The position numbers and the translations under genes are program-made. The notes under the pieces were generated by a model. The model was not told the origin of the DNA and searched no databases. It worked only from the letters and a program-made list of their open reading frames with translations. Shown in pieces: positions 4,488 through 64,000 of a stretch of 64,000 nt of DNA. The stretch comes from Ascidia mentula (lineage: Eukaryota > Chordata > Ascidiacea > Phlebobranchia > Ascidiidae), in NCBI GenBank assembly GCA_947561715.1, contig OX387204.1:1121001-1185000 (forward strand), read 5' to 3'. Within the stretch, counting starts at the first letter, position 1. Every line of letters begins with the position of its first letter.

Positions 4488-5893
4488 AATTAAACAATCA
4501 ATTGGTATAAGTTTATGATAACTTCAAGATATCAACGCTTATTCCACTAGTGTTCAACCCGTGGGCCAATTTTGTCTCGAAATGACGTTTTTTCAACGGT
4601 GTCATATAATTTCTCGATGGTATAGCGCCAATAATTTCCATACGGCAAAGAGTGTTGCGGGATATGTCAAAGCTTGTCGACCACCGGTATAGATCCACAA
4701 CTGCACGTGTTTGGCTGCGTGGCAGCTATTCGTTTCCCAGTCTAATTCATTGTATCATTGTTCGTTGCTTATGGTAGGAATTTGCATTGAATTGCTGCGT
4801 GCCCTGAACGATAGGCATGGTTGAGTTTGGCTTGCTATAACCACTGTTGGGTTCGATTTGTTGGTTAGCAAGATGTTTTTTAACCCAAGTTTTGGGTGTA
4901 AAAAAACAAGTTCGTGCCACCTATGGTTTTGTCAAACTGCAGAATATTTTTTAATTCGGTTTGATGTTATGTCTAAAAATATGTACGAATAGCCCCACAG
5001 CGGACAACGGTTCCACAAACTTCCTATGCTAGAAAAAAGTTTGTTAGGCAATGTTCAGAGTTATCAGAAGTTTTTCGCAATGAAATACATATCAGCCACG
5101 CCCAAAAGCTCCATGATTTTAGTGTATTGTAAACCTATCAGTTCGGTGTAATCCCTCTCTTTCCAGAAACACAAACTAATATAAAGGGGAACTATAAGAC
5201 AATTGTCAATGCAACAACTTGTTTATGACGTAATATTTGTCTTCTATCATCAATTTGCATTGTTTAAAAAGTGTGTTTTGTGCACATGAAAGCATTTAAA
5301 ACACGCAGGAATTTCTTCGAACGGCAAGAGCCACCAAAAAACGCGAATAACCCAGCACAGCACGCCCAATTAAGCGTAACCCTGGTTTTGCAACACGTTG
5401 CAAGTTTTTCGTGGCGTTGTGCAGGATTTGCAGGTCAACTACGAAGTTTAACTGTTTTTGTTTCGTCTTTGCTGAAAGCTCGTTAAAACCGCGACTGCTT
5501 TGATACAAAAGAAAATTCTGCCAGTATTGTAGATGGTATTTGGTTGCACGAGGTTTACAAAAGATTGCTAAAATTAGGCACACTTTGCCAGTACACAAGC
5601 CCAATAAGGCGCTTTTAGGCTTGTGTGGAAAGGTAACATTCGTTCACGGTTTGCACGAAATTTGACATCACGTATGTGCGTATTAACGCAGTAATATAAT
5701 AGTAACAGCAATCTTGTTGTCATTGCATTTGCACTGACCTTTGGTTCGGTTTTGCAGCGTACTAATTGATTTCGGGCGGTTTAAAATGCCAAATGCATGA
5801 AGTAAACATCTTAGAAATGCTGGTTAAATCCCTTTTTTAATTTTCCTTTTTACAGAGACCCAAGGAAAAAGCAAATTATTTGAAAATATTGCA
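4488..5893. other. Intergenic region between RPTP-1 and GST-1a
   Basis: No gene recognised. The stretch is repeated at 27959-29343 in the second copy of the large duplication, with many small indels; open frames in it are not kept between the copies. Near its right end a pyrimidine-rich AG site (about 5854, matched near 29306) lies roughly 40 bp before the GST start codon. That fits a 5'-UTR intron or a spliced-leader acceptor. Confidence 0.6.
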
Positions 5894-6610
5894 ATGAGCA
5901 GTGAAAAGAATTTGCCCGTTTTAGCTTATTGGGATGTTCGGTGCCTCGCTGAACATATACGCTTAATGTTTGTGTATTTGGGAGTAGAATATACAAATAA
6001 GCATTATTTAACCGACGACGCCCCGACTTATGAGCGTAAAGAATGGAAGAAAGACAAATACGACGATTCCCTGGGCTTCGAATTTCCTAACGTGCCTTAC
6101 CTGATCGACGGTGACTTAAGATTGACCGAGAGTTGGGCAATTACACGGTACCTTGCTAGAAAGTACAAGGTCTTGTTTCCAAATAATGCGAAGGGAGAAA
6201 CACAATGCGACATGTTGCAAGGAGTTATTGAGGATTTACGACACGATTTTTGGTTTGTTGCTTGGCAATCCACGTCGGAAAATTTTCTGCCTCGAAAGGA
6301 GGAGTTCTTTAAAAAGTTAATAAGATTGTTAGACTTGTTCAGCAAATACCTGACGGAAAAGCGATGGCTTATCGGGGAGCAATTGACCTTCGTCGATTTT
6401 GCACTCTTTGAGTTACTTGATCAAATCAAACTCATGTTTCCCAACTTTGACGAAAACTGCCCTAAAAACGTTCGGGAATACTTACTTCGATTCGAGTCAC
6501 TCCCTGCCATCAAAGCTTACAGAACATCAAGTCGTTTTAAAGCCCTGCCAGTGAACAGCAAGTATTACTACTGGGGTGGAAGCTCCACACTACCCGAAAA
6601 CAATGCTTAG
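5894..6610 (+). CDS. GST-1a: mu-class glutathione S-transferase, intronless
   Basis: Single-exon frame of 238 aa. Known family: cytosolic GSTs conjugate glutathione to electrophilic compounds; the mu class has an N-terminal thioredoxin-like domain and a C-terminal helical domain. Seen: LAYWDVRCLAEHIRLMF near residues 9-25 carries the catalytic Tyr of the mu YWDIR motif; FPNVPYLIDGD and TESWAITRYLARKY form the glutathione site; GEQLTFVDFALFE is the C-terminal capping motif; the end (SSRFKALPV, YYYWGG) matches the mu tail. Length is slightly above the usual 217-220 aa. The ATG is preceded by AT-rich 5' UTR and an AG splice-like site about 40 bp upstream. It lies head to tail with the GST pseudogene at 7009. 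The lack of introns suggests an old retrocopy origin (inference). Confidence 0.93.
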   Translation: MSSEKNLPVLAYWDVRCLAEHIRLMFVYLGVEYTNKHYLTDDAPTYERKEWKKDKYDDSLGFEFPNVPYLIDGDLRLTESWAITRYLARKYKVLFPNNAKGETQCDMLQGVIEDLRHDFWFVAWQSTSENFLPRKEEFFKKLIRLLDLFSKYLTEKRWLIGEQLTFVDFALFELLDQIKLMFPNFDENCPKNVREYLLRFESLPAIKAYRTSSRFKALPVNSKYYYWGGSSTLPENNA

Positions 6611-27958: not shown

Positions 27959-29343
27959 TTTTAAACAATCAATTGGTATAAGTTTATGATAACTTCAAGA
28001 TATCAACGCTTATTCCAGTAGTGTTCAACCCGTGGGCCAATTTTTTCGAAATGACGTTTTTCAACGGTGTCATATAATTTTTCGATGGTATAGCGCCAAT
28101 AATTTCCATACGGCAAAGAGTGTTGCGGGATATGTCAAAGCTTGTCGACCACCGGTATGATCCACAACTGCACGTGTTTGGGTGTGTGGCAGCTATTTGT
28201 TTCCCAGTCTAATTCATTGTGTCATTGTTCGTTGCTTATGGTAGGAATTTGTTGCGTGCCCTGAACGACAGGCATGGTTGAGTTTGGCTTGCTGTAACCA
28301 CTGTTGGGTTGGATTTGTTGGTTAGCAAGATGTTTTTTACCCAAGTTTTGGGTGCAAAAAAACAAGTTCGTGCCACCTATATGCTTTTGTCAAACTGCAA
28401 AATATTTTTTAATTTGGTTTGATGTTATGTCTAAATATATGCATGAATAGCCCACAGCGGACAACAGTTCCACAAACTTCCTTTGCTGGGAAAAAGTTTG
28501 TTAGGCAATGTTCAGTGTTATCAGAAGTTTTTCGCAATGAAATACATATCAGCCACGCCCAAAAGCTCCATGATTTTAGTGTATTGTAAACCTATCAGTT
28601 TGGTGTAATATCCCACTTCCACAAACTAATACAAAGGGGGAACACTAAGACAATTGTCAATGCAACAACTTGTTTATGACGTAATATTTGTCTTATATCA
28701 TCAATTTGCATTGTTCAAAAAGTGTGTTTTGTGCACAAGAAAGCATTTAAAACACACGGGAATTTCTCCGAACCGCAAGAGCCACCAAAAAACGCGAATA
28801 ACCCAGCACGGCTCGCCCAATTAAGCGTAACGCTGGTTTTGCAACACGTTGCAAGTTTTTCGTGGCGTTGTGCAGGATTTGCAGGTCAACTACGGAGTTT
28901 AACTGTTTTTGTTTTATCTTTGCTGAAAGCTCGTTAAAACCGCGACTGCTTTGATGCAAAAGAAAATTCTGCCAGTATTGTAGATGGTATTTGGTTGCAC
29001 GAAGTTTACAAAAGATTTCTAAAATTAGGAACACTTTGCCAGTACACAAGCCCAATAAGGCGCTTTTTGGCTTGGGTGGAAAGGTAAATTCGTTCACGGT
29101 TTGCATGAAATTTGACATCACGTATGTGCGTATTAACGCAGTAATAAAATAGTAACAGCAATCTTGTTGTCATTGCATTTGCACTGACCTTTGGTTCGGT
29201 TTTGCAGCGTACCAATTGATTACGGTCGGTTTAAAATGCCAAATGCATGAAGTAAACATCTAAGAAATGCTGGTTATATCCCTTTTTGAATTTTCCTTTT
29301 TACAGAGACCCAAGGAAAAAGCAAATTATTTGAAAATATTGCA
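27959..29343. other. Intergenic region between RPTP-2 and GST-2a
   Basis: Second copy of 4488-5893; no gene recognised. A T-rich AG acceptor-like site at about 29306, shared with the first copy, lies shortly before the GST start. Confidence 0.55.
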
Positions 29344-30054
29344 ATGAGCAGTGGAAAGCCCGTTTTAGCATATTGGGATGTTCGGTGCCTCGCTGAACAT
29401 ATACGCTTAATGTTTGAGTATTTAGGAGTAGAATATACAAATAAGCATTATTTAACCGGCGACGCTCCGACTTATGAGCGTAAAGAATGGAAGAAAGACA
29501 AATACGACGATTCCCTGGGCTTTGAATTTCCTAACGTTCCTTACCTAATCGACGGTGACTTAAGATTGACCGAGAGTTGGGCAATAACACGGTACCTTGC
29601 AAGAAAGTACAAGGTCTTGTTTCCAGATAATGCAGAGGGAGAAACACAATGCGACATGTTGCAAGGGGTTATTGAGGATTTACGACACGATTTTTGGTTT
29701 GTTGCTTGGCAATCCACGTCGGAAAATTTTCTGCCTCGAAAGAAGGAGTTCTTTAAAAAGTTAATAAGATTGTTAGACTTGTTCAGCAAATACCTGACGG
29801 AAAAGCGATGGCTTGTCGGGGAGCAATTGACCTTCGTCGATTTTGCACTCTTTGAGTTACTTGATCAAATCAAACTCATGTTTCCCAACTTTGACGAAAA
29901 CTGCCCTAAAAACATCCGGGAATACTTACTTCGATTCCAGTCACTCCCTGCCATCAAAGCTTACAGAACATCAAGTCGTTTCAAAGCCCTGCCAGTGAAC
30001 AGCAAATACTACTACTGGGGTGGAAGCTCCACACTACCCGAAAACAATGCTTAG
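29344..30054 (+). CDS. GST-2a: mu-class glutathione S-transferase, intronless
   Basis: 236 aa, one exon. It is the duplicate of GST-1a with scattered substitutions and two fewer residues near the N-terminus (MSSGKPVLAYWDVRC). The catalytic Tyr in LAYWDVR, the glutathione-site motifs FPNVPYLIDGD and TESWAITRYLARKY, and the VDFALFE motif are all present. Substitutions relative to GST-1a are mostly conservative or silent, consistent with both being functional. Confidence 0.93.
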   Translation: MSSGKPVLAYWDVRCLAEHIRLMFEYLGVEYTNKHYLTGDAPTYERKEWKKDKYDDSLGFEFPNVPYLIDGDLRLTESWAITRYLARKYKVLFPDNAEGETQCDMLQGVIEDLRHDFWFVAWQSTSENFLPRKKEFFKKLIRLLDLFSKYLTEKRWLVGEQLTFVDFALFELLDQIKLMFPNFDENCPKNIREYLLRFQSLPAIKAYRTSSRFKALPVNSKYYYWGGSSTLPENNA

Positions 30055-30427
30055 CAATCTGAGATGAGATCCAAGATTTAAAAAACCTTGGACAAAATTT
30101 CTATGTTGGAATGTGACCATGTGACAAATGTAAACATATTAACATGCGTATAGGGTCAAGAATTAACACTTCTTCTTAACCAGTTGTCTTGTAATTTTGT
30201 AAAGCATTTTTTTACATTGGGTAACTTTTGTGTTGCTTAAAATGCCCTGGTTTGTTTTTTTCAAGACAAAGGCTTGCTATGACATGCATTTATTTTGTTG
30301 TTAAAAAAAAGAAATAAAAAAGAAAGTTTGCAGAGAAGGTGTGGACCAAGGTTGCAGCTCAAAAACTTTTTTTATTCTTTAGAAAATCAGTTCAAAATAC
30401 ACTGCCAAATATATACGTAACAACAAG

Positions 30428-31111
30428 ATGGGCAAACCTGTTTTAGGTTATTGGGATATCAGATGTCTTGCTGAGCCAATTAGACTCATGTTTGAGTTTT
30501 TAGAAGTAGATTATGTAAACAAACTTTACCTCACAGGGAACGCTCCACATTATGAACGCAAGGAATGGCAACATGACAAAGTTGACCTTGGGCTTGACTT
30601 TCCCAATGTGCCATATTTAATTGATGGGGAAATCAAACTGACTGAGAGTTGGGCCATAATGCGTTATCTGGCACGGAAACATAAAACTTTGCATCCTTTA
30701 ACAACACAACAAGAAATGCAATGTGATTTACTTCAGGGTGTCATTGAAGATGTTCGGTATTGGTTCATTAACCTTGCTTACTATTCCACTGATGAAAATT
30801 TTGAATCCAACAAGTCAAAGTTTTATGACAAGTTCACCAAGCAAATGTGCTGTTTTGGGAATTTCATGGGTAAAGGTTCTTGGCTTACTGGTGACAAACT
30901 TACTTTTGTTGATTTTGCATTGTTTGAAACCTTGCACCAAATAAAGCTAATGTTTCCAAACTTTGAAAAGGATTGCCCTCAAAACACTGCTGAGTATTAC
31001 AACAACTTTCTTGCAATTCCACAGATAAAAGCTTATCACAGTTCAGATAGGTTTAAACCACTCCCTATAAACAGTAAATATAGCTACTGGGGTGGTGGCT
31101 TGCAACTGTGA
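30428..31111 (+). CDS. GST-2b: mu-class glutathione S-transferase, intact partner of the broken GST-1b
   Basis: 227 aa, one exon. The N-terminus MGKPVLGYWDIRCLAEPIRL carries the mu-class catalytic Tyr; ESWAIMRYLARKHK and GDKLTFVDFALFET are intact. It shares family motifs with GST-2a next door but is clearly a separate older paralogue. Since GST-1b is dead, this is the only working member of the pair in the window. It ends earlier than the 7009 copy (WGGGLQL then TGA). Confidence 0.93.
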   Translation: MGKPVLGYWDIRCLAEPIRLMFEFLEVDYVNKLYLTGNAPHYERKEWQHDKVDLGLDFPNVPYLIDGEIKLTESWAIMRYLARKHKTLHPLTTQQEMQCDLLQGVIEDVRYWFINLAYYSTDENFESNKSKFYDKFTKQMCCFGNFMGKGSWLTGDKLTFVDFALFETLHQIKLMFPNFEKDCPQNTAEYYNNFLAIPQIKAYHSSDRFKPLPINSKYSYWGGGLQL

Positions 31112-58220: not shown

Positions 58221-60641
58221 AATTGTTACGTCACACACACACTTACAGTACTAACACTGAGGCTTGGCAGCCCAAAGGACCGAAAACCCGAAACGAAATT
58301 CCCTGTAAAAGCAAAAAATGTTTCGCATAACATGAAGGTATCAAAGTTCTGTATTAAACATCGTAGAGCAAAATATATTTTGTCCTCGTTGCTGTTCACT
58401 AAACTACTACGAAATGTTGCGTCAAATCATCGGCTCGTGTGAGTATGTTATTATTATACGCAACACGTCGACCCCTATCCATTTAAACACACTAGCTGGA
58501 CAGTGTGTTAATCATCATATTACATCGACATCCGTTGTTACTTTTGTTTGATTTCTATGTGCGCTCATCTTGTCACATGTCAACAAAACCTAACGCCTCG
58601 CCAACTTCCCTGCAGTCTTTGTTCGCCAGATGAACCCCGTATACTACTTGCAGACAACGTCCCTACCTTGACAACATAAACCATACAATTCCAGGCGAAG
58701 CTGCGTCTGAGGGTTGGGATACGTTCTTACTCCCGACAGGTCGATTGCGTCAGACTTTGTTTTCCCCTTCTGTCGTAACGCGGATGCCAACAGTCGTTCG
58801 GTGTTTCAACCTTTTCTCCTTTCCCAGGGCCCACTCATAACACAAAACCAACTGCCGTCCTTTTTTCACGCAGCCGTCTGCGCGGTTTCGGTGCACTTCG
58901 ATCTGTAGTGGCTCCCAACCGGCCCAAAGCGGCCACTGAAGGTTATTGTTCAGCCCGCGAGCGACGTATTTTGCTACTCCACACAACAAAGAAATTTGCA
59001 TCGCGCACTTTTACGCCACCGAGAAAGGAAACACGTGACGGTCAGGTGGCGTGGAAGCGGTTGTCAACAGTTCATCTTGTCTTAAATTAATCGTGAACGC
59101 AATGCATTAGGATGGCGTTACATATTCGCTTTTGGTTTCTGTGAACGTCGATAATATATGGGCAGTAATACTTTGTTGAGTTTGCTTAAAGTAATCGCCG
59201 ATCTGAAACTGTCAATTACATACTAAGGAAGCTTCGTTCATTCCGACGAGAAACGAACGGTTTATCTCTTTCACATCCTGGAAATAGAACGCATCAAAAC
59301 ACAGCATCAGAAAACCGTCATGCAGCAGCATGTTCATACATAGCACTCATTAATAATGCTGCTGACCACTAGTATAAAGTGAAATTGCGAAATGCCCTAT
59401 TTACCAGCATTTTTCCGACTATGGAGCACGTTGTTGTTGTATTTGAATCTACGTTTCAATGGATTTCATCGTTACTGCTGACTCCCACTATTGTTGCTGT
59501 CGGCAAAATTCTGCGGTGGCGATACTGGTTTATTCCGGTTTGAGAGGAAAGTACGCTGGTTTACGTTTCGGTTATCGAACTGAAATTGTCATATTTTGGG
59601 CACGTTTGTATCTGTCAAACGCCATACTTTTAAATCATTGTGCCGTATTTTACAGTATTCATGCCGATGCAAAAGTATAATTCGTAGATTTAAAAAAATT
59701 AAATATTTTCGAGTATTTCGCAAAAACGAAAATTTACAAACAGATCTTCGGGAAACAACCATAAACTGTTTTGTCACACTAATTCATCGCCTAATTTGAT
59801 GAAATTACAATAAAAAAGCGGTCGTCACTCTCGTTTCTATAGTTTGGTAGCTATTATAAGATTTATCTTCGAATTGTTTTTTATTGTTATTATTGTACAA
59901 CACGCGCGCGTGCATTTCACGTCCGTAGGCTATGCGCGAAATTGATTTGCATACACTCAACATGACCTGCATAGCGCTGCCCTAATAATAATAGTTCAGT
60001 CTCACTGATGCTAATATTTGACAGCATGAACCTGCTTGAACCGGTTTAGGCCAGATTTTCAAATTACCTTCCAATTGTTACTTACTTAACTGAGCTCGGC
60101 GGATCTTGAATAATTTATTATTACATTGTCCGACTGATGCGTTTGACAGGGCATGAACTTGTCAACTACGCCTTAAAGAATCTGCTAAGTAAGCTCCAAT
60201 AATTTAATAAATATATACACAAAATAGTTGTAATTGAGGTAAAAAATCTTGGTTTTTTAACCGTCAAAATGACAGCTATATGATGACAGGTCTCTCATTT
60301 AAATATAATTGTTTTAAATGAAAGGTGCGATTGTAAGTTGATAGTATTTTTTTATTGACTTAATTTATTAACAAATCCATCAGCACAAATTCGAACTTGC
60401 AAAATTGATTTCAATGTAAAAAAATACGCGAATGCAATAGAAATCAAACTACAACCTTTGAACTCCTTTTTGCGTGGAGCCATCGTGGTAAACGGAGGTA
60501 AATTTTACTCTCAAATAATTTGATAATTTTGTAATAGTTCTTGGATTTATACAAGTAGAAAATTTTGAAATTTACAATTAGTAATCAGTACGTTTCTTTT
60601 TAGTAGCGAAGCACTGTTTCGCAACCCACCAGATCGTCAAA
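58221..60641. promoter_or_regulatory. Divergent intergenic region, bestrophin D to RPL30
   Basis: About 2.4 kb between two divergent genes. No gene recognised; small open frames overlap on both strands with no known motifs. Near 60466-60500, CTCCTTTTTGCG followed by a GGTAAAC donor-like site, and a TTTTTAG acceptor near 60603, look like a short 5'-UTR exon and intron of RPL30 with a pyrimidine-tract start typical of ribosomal protein genes. Confidence 0.45.
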
Positions 60642-63600
60642 ATGCCTGCCAAGAAAACAGTACGTAACACCTAATAATATCCCGGTTGAATTACCTTGGC
60701 TTAACAATAGCTGCCGAAAAATGTATTTAAGAAGAATAACATTGGGCTTCGTAATACTATAGATATGTGGGTTTGCTTTTTTAGCTTACATATTTATTTT
60801 GAAATGATGCAATACTTGTGCATCAAATTTCTTTTGAGGATATGTAATGTTTAGTACTATTTGGTCCTAAATATATAAATTTTGTGAAAACATACACAAA
60901 TTACCACCTGCTGTCAGTATTTCAATTGAAATAAAAAAAAGCGAACTTCCTAAGACAACATATTTTTTGTTGTTATTTGGGTCAGGTTTACTTTAAAAAA
61001 GCTTTATAAGTGACCTTCAAACTTGGTTAAAAACAATGTAACAATCTTTTTCAGCTTTAATGCAACAACCCAACAGTCCCCCTGGCTCCCAGCAACCCTT
61101 GTTGTCATTTAAATTAACAACAAGTTACTGAGTTGGAGCTAGAAAGTTATAGCCTTGCCATAACTACTGTTTTGCTGCATTGCATTACAGATTTAAGCTA
61201 AGGCTACAGTATATAACTAGTTCCATTTAATAGTACTTTTCATACATTAGGATAAACTGTTGCGTGTTTCACTACTTTTCTATATGTATATCTTGATCTC
61301 GGGTCTATGATTTTTAATTATTGTCATGTCATATTTTTGTTCAGAAAAAGGCGATTGAAAATATTAATGCCAGATTGCGGCTGGTGATGAAAAGTGGAAA
61401 ATACCATTTGGGGTATCGTCAAACGTTGAAAAATCTTCGACAGGGAAAAGCCAAACTAGTGATCCTTGCTTCAAATTGTCCTGCATTGAGGTTGGTATCC
61501 ACCAAATTGTTTGAACACATATCTTACACGTGTGGTGTAAAGACATTCAAACAAAGTCAAAAATTCTGTAACTTACCCTCTGGAATAAGGCTAGTCTGTA
61601 AAACATAACATAATGTAATGTTGCAGTTTGGTAAAAGTAGGAGGAATAAAAAATCACAGTTACCTACAAGACCTTATCCTCTCTGTGGATTTGGTCGTCT
61701 GGGTGCTGTGAAACAGTTAATATTATTTTCAAATGTAAAACTAGTAAATGTATTGTGCTTATTTTAAACTGTAATAGTCAATTTGCAGGTTTGTGGTAAG
61801 AATTAAATATTAAACTAGTGGAAATAAGGAAAATGTCGATCTCCTGTCGATTTTACGCTGATAAGTTTCCGGAGGTTGAAGATGTTGTGATGGTGAACGT
61901 TCAGTCCATCGCTGAGATGGGAGCCTATGTTCGTCTGCTTGAGTATAACAATATAGAGGGAATGATTTTGCTCAGCGAATTGTCAAGGAGGAGAATTCGT
62001 TCCATCAACAAACTTATCCGAGTAGGCAGGGATGAATGTGTTGTAGTGATCAGAGTGGACAAAGAGAAGGGTTACATTGATCTCTCAAAGCGTCGTGTCT
62101 CACCAGAAGAAGCAAAGAAGTGTGAAAACAAGTACTCAAAAGCAAAATGTGTTCACAGCATCTTGAGACACACTGTCGAGTTGCTACACAAGGAAGGCAT
62201 TGAAGTGGATTTTGAGGACTTTTTTGAGCGTTCTGCTTGGGCTTATGATGAGAAATACAAGCGTGCAAATGAAAAGAACAAGGCATCGTACGACATGTTC
62301 AAAAAAGCAATAGATGACCCAACTATCTTAGATGAGCTCAAGATCAGTGATGATGAGAAACGAATCTTGCTGAAAAACATCCAAAGACGTCTCACTCCAC
62401 AAGCCATGAAGGTCCGGTCCGATGTGGAGGTTTCCTGTTATGCCTACGAAGGTGTGGATGCGGTGAAACGAGCTCTTAAAACGGGGGTTGAGTGTTCCAC
62501 TGAGGAGCATAAAATCAAGATAAACCTCATTGCCCCCCCTCTGTACGTGCTAACCACCCAAACGCTGGACCGTACTCAAGGGGTAGAGGCATTGAAAAAG
62601 GCTTTAGATTGTATTGAGGAGTCCATTACAGCTGCAGATGGCAAGTTTAATGTAAAAATGGCACCAAAGGTTGTCACGGACTTGGATGACATTGAATTGC
62701 AAAAGAAGCTTGAATCGTTGGCACTTGAAAATGAGGAAGTTGATGGTGATGATGATGCAGATGAATATGACGACTGATATTATTTATTACCAAAGCTTCA
62801 TATTTTATTTTGTTCTAAAATCCTATGTTGTGCATATACTAAGCAAATATGCTTGGATCCTATACATTGCCGATATACTTCAAATTGTTCAAACACAAAT
62901 GCTCATTTTCCAAAAGTTTTGTAAATGTTATGCAGATTGTGCAATTATTAAGTTACTCCTGCATAAAATCTGAATTTTGCCCCAAAATTCTCAAATGTTG
63001 CAAAAGAGCATTCTTTATATTGTTGTGTAAATAACTTTTTGAATGGTTATGGCGGGAAAACATGTTTTGGCCAAACAGTAACTTGGTGGAATGCTTGAAG
63101 TATCCTCTTTTTTTCTTGCAGAAAATCAGAAATTGAATATTATGCGATGCTTGCGAAGACTGGCGTTCATCATTATACCGGTAACAACATAGAATTGGGA
63201 ACAGCTTGTGGAAAGTATTTTCGAGTTTGCACCCTGACGATCACAGACCCCGGTAACTATGCGTGAATAACGTGTTGACATTTCTTCGGAGATTAGTTTG
63301 TACATTTTTGGTACAAACTGACTGTATGGTTGTTGAGAGTGCCCTAAGAAAACTATTACCCATTCCTTGCCACTAACCCGAGGTTCCCAAATGTGGCACA
63401 CTAGTACGTTTGTTTTAATGTACCCTGGAATTGTAAGTATACTTGGAGAATTTTATTTCCATATTCCACTGTAAGGTCATATTTTTGGGTACACTGTTAT
63501 AACATTTTGTTTGCACGTCGAGTCCTATCAGTGCAGCTTGTGACTACCAACCATCATGCCGCCTAACTGACTAGAGAAAAAAAATTTGTGGTTTTGATTT

Positions 63601-63740
63601 TGATAAAATGTTGCTAGTGTTGTGCCAGAACTTGTTGCAAGTACTTCTACAGGTTAAGTAATATTTATTTACTTCTAGGTGACAGTGACATCATCCGAAG
63701 TATGCCTGCCCCATCTGGTGGTCAGACTGCTGGGGATTAG
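60642..63740 (+). CDS. RPL30: 60S ribosomal protein L30
   Basis: Four coding exons: 60642-60659 (MPAKKT), 61345-61490, 63122-63252, 63679-63740; 357 nt, 118 aa, in frame. The family is about 115 aa. Conserved landmarks: [80 protein letters not shown]. It binds 28S rRNA in the large subunit. A polyadenylation signal AATAAA lies at 63750-63755, just after the stop. Odd: intron 2 (61491-63121) contains the whole intronless eIF2-alpha gene on the same strand. Confidence 0.96.
61788..61833 (+). promoter_or_regulatory. 3' splice-acceptor-like site just before the eIF2-alpha start
   Basis: TCAATTTGCAG ends at about 61788, 45 bp upstream of the ATG, inside RPL30 intron 2. It could accept a 5'-UTR exon by cis-splicing, possibly shared with RPL30, or a spliced leader. 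Inference only. Confidence 0.4.
61833..62777 (+). CDS. EIF2S1: Eukaryotic translation initiation factor 2 subunit alpha, intronless, nested in RPL30
   Basis: Single-exon frame of 314 aa. The start is ATG at 61833 (AAAATGTCG context; [18 protein letters not shown]); an in-frame GTG slightly upstream is not needed. Known role: eIF2 brings initiator tRNA to the 40S subunit, and Ser51 of alpha is phosphorylated by stress kinases to lower translation. Seen: S1 RNA-binding domain ([20 protein letters not shown]), the kinase-target loop [13 protein letters not shown] with the regulatory Ser, [20 protein letters not shown], the helical domain, [29 protein letters not shown], and the acidic end [12 protein letters not shown]. 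Length and ends are full. The family normally has several introns in animals, so this is likely a retrocopy that now lies in the RPL30 intron; its open frame indicates function. Confidence 0.95.
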
Positions 63741-64000
63741 GTGGATGCAAATAAAATATAAAGGCCATTTCTGGAGGTGCTTGTATTGCAAACAGTTTTA
63801 GATAAGAAAGCAGCATGTGCTGTCTGAAACTTAGTTATTACTGTACAGTTTGTGAGGTGATATTTGTTATAACTCTGTTATTACAAAAGCATGCTCCTCA
63901 AGAGTTTACCACCCACACTCCACATAATTTTGGAAAGTGAAAACCTATTTTTTTAATTGTGCAAATCAGCAGTTTGTGCGTGTTTTTGCTCCTTATGAGA
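63741..64000. other. RPL30 3' flank
   Basis: 260 bp holding the AATAAA at 63750 and AT-rich sequence; nothing else seen. Confidence 0.5.

Follow-up and report, generated by a model that had tools for sequence, protein, structure and literature searches.

An intronless eIF2-alpha gene within intron 2 of RPL30 in Ascidia mentula, and its possible expression through a spliced leader

The host gene and the gene within it

The second intron of the ribosomal-protein gene RPL30 of the ascidian Ascidia mentula harbors an intronless frame for eIF2-alpha, the product of EIF2S1. The genes and signals of this locus are given below in the coordinates of the window, by which we mean the whole stretch of 64,000 nucleotides that was analyzed.

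60596..60641, plus strand: putative RPL30 5' leader (sequence; inferred transcription start), with a TOP-like CTTTTT at its first base
60642..60659, plus strand: RPL30 coding exon 1 (MPAKKT)
61345..61490, plus strand: RPL30 exon 2
61491..63121, plus strand: RPL30 intron 2, the host intron, GT-AG, phase 2, single copy in the genome
61645..61650, plus strand: AATAAA between RPL30 exon 2 and EIF2S1, which may or may not be used and, if used, could cut the host precursor short
61751..61832, plus strand: ATG-free stretch immediately 5' of the EIF2S1 start; the last upstream ATG begins at 61748
61769..61789, plus strand: candidate trans- or cis-splice acceptor, weak, ...TTTGCAG/G, cut at 61788/61789
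61833..62777, plus strand: EIF2S1 (eIF2-alpha) coding sequence, intronless, 314 aa; ATG at 61833, stop ending at 62777
62962..62967, plus strand: CATAAA, the sole one of 12 poly(A)-type hexamers searched from the EIF2S1 stop to exon 3
63122..63252, plus strand: RPL30 exon 3
63679..63740, plus strand: RPL30 exon 4, including the stop
63750..63755, plus strand: AATAAA of RPL30, a possible shared 3' end

Joining the four RPL30 coding exons yields an eL30 protein of 118 aa, whose top solved-structure match is 60S ribosomal protein L30 (E=3e-61), and the three introns, of 685, 1631 and 426 bases, are all GT-AG, with phases 0, 2 and 1. The CTTTTT at 60596 is a plausible start of RPL30, and no upstream ATG occurs in the leader 60596-60641. 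EIF2S1 lies wholly within intron 2, on the strand common to both genes, and its product matches eIF2 subunit 1 (chain 9uzl_A) across residues 3-312 with E=1.1e-131, a full-length eIF2-alpha hit in which the Ser51 loop is intact. The nested anatomy is thus confirmed, and the preliminary description, which had EIF2S1 as nested, on the same strand, intronless and full length, is borne out by the open frame 61833-62777 inside the intron. Its further claim of good splice sites flanking the host intron holds for one side only: scored with generic matrices that are not trained on this species, against a background of 305 intergenic AGs and 442 GTs, the acceptor is strong (1/305 AGs as good), whereas the donor, GAG/GTTGGT, is mediocre (18/442 GTs as good).

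No Rfam family at gathering score occurs anywhere in the window, and hence no intronic RNA gene was found in the host. In the 19 kb past the window, PDIA6-like and ATR-like genes, named by eye from their translations, lie on the minus strand, and no same-strand partner was recognized there by eye. A bacterial and archaeal collection searched for related loci gave 23 pattern matches, one of which was confirmed, as an archaeal homologue.

Copy number and probable origin of EIF2S1

Searches of the 195.8-Mb genome (79 contigs), in each of which the best candidates were scored, returned a single match for the Pfam family EIF_2_alpha, a single match at E<=1 for the full EIF2S1 protein and a single match for the whole of RPL30 intron 2 as DNA; the three matches to RPL30 are all exons of the window gene. 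Among the candidates scored there was no EIF2S1 with introns and no processed copy, so that the second, intron-containing gene for which a genome-wide check had earlier been proposed emerged from neither the Pfam nor the protein search. If the assembly is complete, the nested EIF2S1 must be the working gene, because no other copy was found.

Animal relatives of EIF2S1 carry introns, and the intronless Ascidia gene is best read as a fixed, probable retrogene. We keep this designation at probable since neither a parent nor a relict spliced leader (SL) beyond chance was found, and the same would be seen after an old insertion whose parent had been lost. Relict SL DNA upstream of the ATG, had there been any, would point to retroposition of an mRNA bearing the SL; the best candidate was rejected, its score of 7 being matched by 1,453/5,000 shuffles and by 1,149/6,394 genomic 60-mers, and this absence counts against an explanation of EIF2S1 by retroposition and an SL.

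The intronlessness itself is apparently nothing special in this genome, because genes with unbroken frames recur: in five of the 26 proteasome-domain matches (L033-L037) one open frame runs across almost the entire domain, and several Ras-family matches are likewise unbroken. Downstream of one of the five, L033 (PSMB7-like by eye), at a distance of about 350 bases and in the same orientation, lies a leucine-rich-repeat frame, which gives the pair an operon-like look. GH6 marks tunicates, and two partial GH6 matches exceeded the cut-off in this genome, at E=9.2e-6 and E=1.1e-4, the latter with one internal stop; together with the Ciona-type SL 16-mer described below they indicate an ascidian.

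Signals for transcription, splicing and 3' ends

Gene-body methylation in ascidians is linked to CpG loss, and low intronic CpG would be expected if a single methylated transcription unit began at RPL30. The observed/expected ratio is 1.11 over the 5.6 kb that precede RPL30, 0.41 in intron 1, 0.23 and 0.25 in intron 2 before and after EIF2S1, 0.71 in the EIF2S1 coding sequence and 0.55 in intron 3, and no clear promoter-like gap in the depletion occurs across the RPL30 introns. Exons 2 and 3 show no depletion (0.91 and 1.22, in short exons with 5 and 7 CpGs). We compared EIF2S1 with eight intronless controls, namely the five proteasome loci and the three of 30 fetched Ras-family loci with a domain-spanning frame. 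The 300 bases 5' of the EIF2S1 ATG have the lowest ratio of all, 0.14 against 0.26-1.16, and 6/8 controls reach 0.9 or more in one or several 300-base bins within 1.2 kb upstream (L036 and L037 being the exceptions), the maximum for EIF2S1 being 0.85. Taken together, the CpG signal leans, weakly, to a promoter shared by RPL30 and EIF2S1. No TATAWA occurs at 61300-61830 before EIF2S1, which says little because none occurs at RPL30 60480-60640 either.

Another reading is that EIF2S1 is transcribed independently, with or without an SL, from a promoter of its own in RPL30 intron 1 or 2, which we regard as a serious, if on the whole doubtful, contender. Promoters of VAChT inside the ChAT intron are a known solution for nested genes, to judge from the title of a reference in PMC3053374, and two pyrimidine runs, at 61576 and 61678, are TOP-like, while the AATAAA at 61645 could part the host from the nested transcripts. 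Against it stand two weak arguments: the CpG poverty of the intron before EIF2S1, and the ATGs at 61613, 61618, 61733 and 61748, which would precede the frame unless transcription began after 61750.

Because of these same four ATGs between RPL30 exon 2 and EIF2S1, a clean EIF2S1 leader must start after 61750, and the best of the 17 AGs in 61491-61833 is the one cut at 61788/61789, inside the ATG-free stretch. The preliminary description had pointed to an acceptor near 61788 and to an SL as one option; the acceptor is there but weak, as 35/305 background AGs score as well. Sites of this grade are expected by chance at about 0.45 per 83-base stretch, so that it is no better than chance density, another AG lies 11 bases upstream, and the true acceptors of RPL30 introns 1, 2 and 3 are all better (8/305, 1/305 and 5/305). 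The site is compatible with trans-splicing and no proof of it. Seven bases past it, at 61796 in the window, lies a strong donor-like GTG/GTAAGAAT (1/442 GTs as good), and the AGs between that site and the EIF2S1 ATG score poorly. Elsewhere in the window, three GST-like intronless frames (5828-6610, 29290-30054 and 30383-31111) have strong acceptors close upstream (1/305 and 3/305 for the two scored), which suggests a 5' UTR intron or SL addition in those genes.

The same acceptor could in principle be used in cis, with RPL30 exon 1, or exons 1-2, joined to 61789 and EIF2S1 sharing the RPL30 5' end; the donors of introns 1 and 2 do lie upstream of it on the same strand. Splicing from exon 1 would place an 11-codon frame (MPAKKTVCGKN) from the RPL30 ATG ahead of EIF2S1, and splicing from exons 1-2 a truncated RPL30 frame; both forms are expected to hinder EIF2S1 translation, and we consider this reading improbable. 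Less credible still is that EIF2S1 translation relies wholly on rare RPL30 transcripts that keep the intron, or that this copy is poorly expressed and its main counterpart is missing from the assembly, for while 79 contigs may be incomplete, the 314-aa protein is intact and strongly conserved, the 195.8 Mb hold no other copy among the candidates scored, and a retained transcript would carry 11 ATGs in intron 1 and four in intron 2 before the frame.

The SL option draws its force from the remainder of the genome. The 16-mer searched, which we take to be the Ciona-type leader, has 2,969 matches with at most one mismatch, as opposed to eight for the reversed control. In the stretch L028 (15252000-15259000), inside an SL array on G000:C1, GTAAGC, a short stretch rich in G and C and a run of Ts come after 8/8 exact SL copies, the downstream layout that SL RNA genes should have, and we therefore call them SL-RNA-like. 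Arrays of such SL-RNA-like units, as SL trans-splicing requires, are accordingly present in this genome, and because of them a spliced leader is a real option for EIF2S1.

The tandem array surrounding L028 (G000:C1:15239666-15291400) extends over about 52 kb, interrupted by gaps of about 7 kb, in units of about 720 bases, and the array unit read carries a further SL copy with one mismatch (ATTCTGTTTGAATAAG), which has a GTAAGC of its own. Exact SL 16-mers also occur within several dispersed repeat families, at least one of them palindromic (L018), as seen around position 1500 in the 14 of 20 fetched loci that were read (L008-L013, L015-L018, L020, L022, L023 and L026). The SL copies in L008-L010, L011-L013 and L015-L016 are not simple retrocopies, because homology reaches upstream of the SL.

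As regards 3' ends, neither AATAAA nor ATTAAA occurs in the 344 bases after the EIF2S1 stop, whereas 8/8 intronless controls have one within 500 bases. As evidence that EIF2S1 ends at the RPL30 site this was rejected as not significant, since 481/2,000 shuffled tails lack both signals.

Expression of EIF2S1 and comparison with known systems

The reading that we prefer, at a probability of roughly 0.4, is that EIF2S1 is a retrogene with a lost parent whose mRNA is SL trans-spliced at 61788/61789 from a precursor made by the RPL30 promoter. A spliced eIF2-alpha mRNA would have been copied into RPL30 intron 2, and loss of the intron-bearing parent would have left the nested copy as the only one found. 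The precursor RNA would probably begin at the RPL30 promoter; from it, cis-splicing of exon 2 to exon 3 would give RPL30 mRNA, and the alternative product, most likely by SL addition at 61788/61789, would be an EIF2S1 mRNA with a leader of 16+44 bases devoid of upstream ATGs, with its 3' end at a weak site in the intron or at the poly(A) site of RPL30.

This reading is favored by the complete frame, free of introns, of an essential protein for which the searches gave no second copy, by the excess of SL matches over the reversed control, the 8/8 exact SL copies of L028 and the position of the best AG inside the ATG-free stretch, and by the CpG-poor introns, the lowest ratio before the ATG and the recurrence of unbroken-frame genes. 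It is weakened by the feeble acceptor with its neighboring AG, by exons 2 and 3 not being CpG-depleted, by the two of eight controls that resemble EIF2S1, by the AATAAA at 61645, which could end the host precursor before EIF2S1, and by the exon-2 donor, which should compete in cis for 61789. A tunicate case also speaks against it: in Botryllus, as described in PMC3691228, two linked genes have no predicted promoter between them and the second carried no SL. EIF2S1 is perhaps expressed by SL trans-splicing.

A bolder extension, which we deem unlikely, is an "intronic operon" in which the one precursor from the RPL30 promoter is divided between cis-splicing (RPL30 mRNA) and SL trans-splicing (eIF2-alpha mRNA, perhaps using the RPL30 poly(A) site), resulting in inverse or ratio control of the two products; linked expression of RPL30 and EIF2S1 as such is possible, and the single transcription unit of the preliminary description, with its suggested coupling of ribosomal protein output to the initiation factor, is an inference. 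With this locus, an indispensable translation factor of which no second copy was found would rely on an intron of a ribosomal-protein gene. If trans-splicing from the host precursor does take place, competition between cis- and trans-splicing on one RNA would set the ratio of two translation components. Were the intronic operon to hold as well, a ribosomal protein and a stress-regulated initiation factor would stand under built-in control.

Among the titles and abstract openings of the matches listed in our literature search, no paper on the RPL30-EIF2S1 nesting was found, those naming both genes being, by title, transcriptome or proteome-type studies. Retrogenes nested in host introns are a known general kind, and EIF2S1 resembles them as an intronless copy in another gene's intron; it differs in that the gene is essential and no other copy was found, so that it would have replaced its parent. 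VAChT and ChAT lie on one strand. PMC3053374 describes VAChT as a single-exon frame nested in the first intron of ChAT, an arrangement conserved in nematode, Drosophila and mammals. This cholinergic gene locus is the direct precedent, with a one-exon gene lodged in the intron of a gene to which its function is linked, and RPL30-EIF2S1 is not unprecedented, although the pathway is a different one and the host is here intron 2 of a ribosomal-protein gene, with possible use of an SL.

A further comparison is with the SL systems of tunicates such as Ciona and Oikopleura; the Ascidia genome carries the Ciona-type 16-mer in tandem SL-RNA-like units. PMC6883708 reports that 33/40 initiation factors and 103/129 ribosomal proteins are trans-spliced in Oikopleura and that ribosomal-protein mRNAs of Ciona have a TOP motif, the latter fitting an RPL30 that is not trans-spliced here. 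Genes in tunicate operons are consecutive, whereas EIF2S1 lies inside an intron of RPL30, and therefore cis- and trans-splicing would be mutually exclusive on any one precursor.
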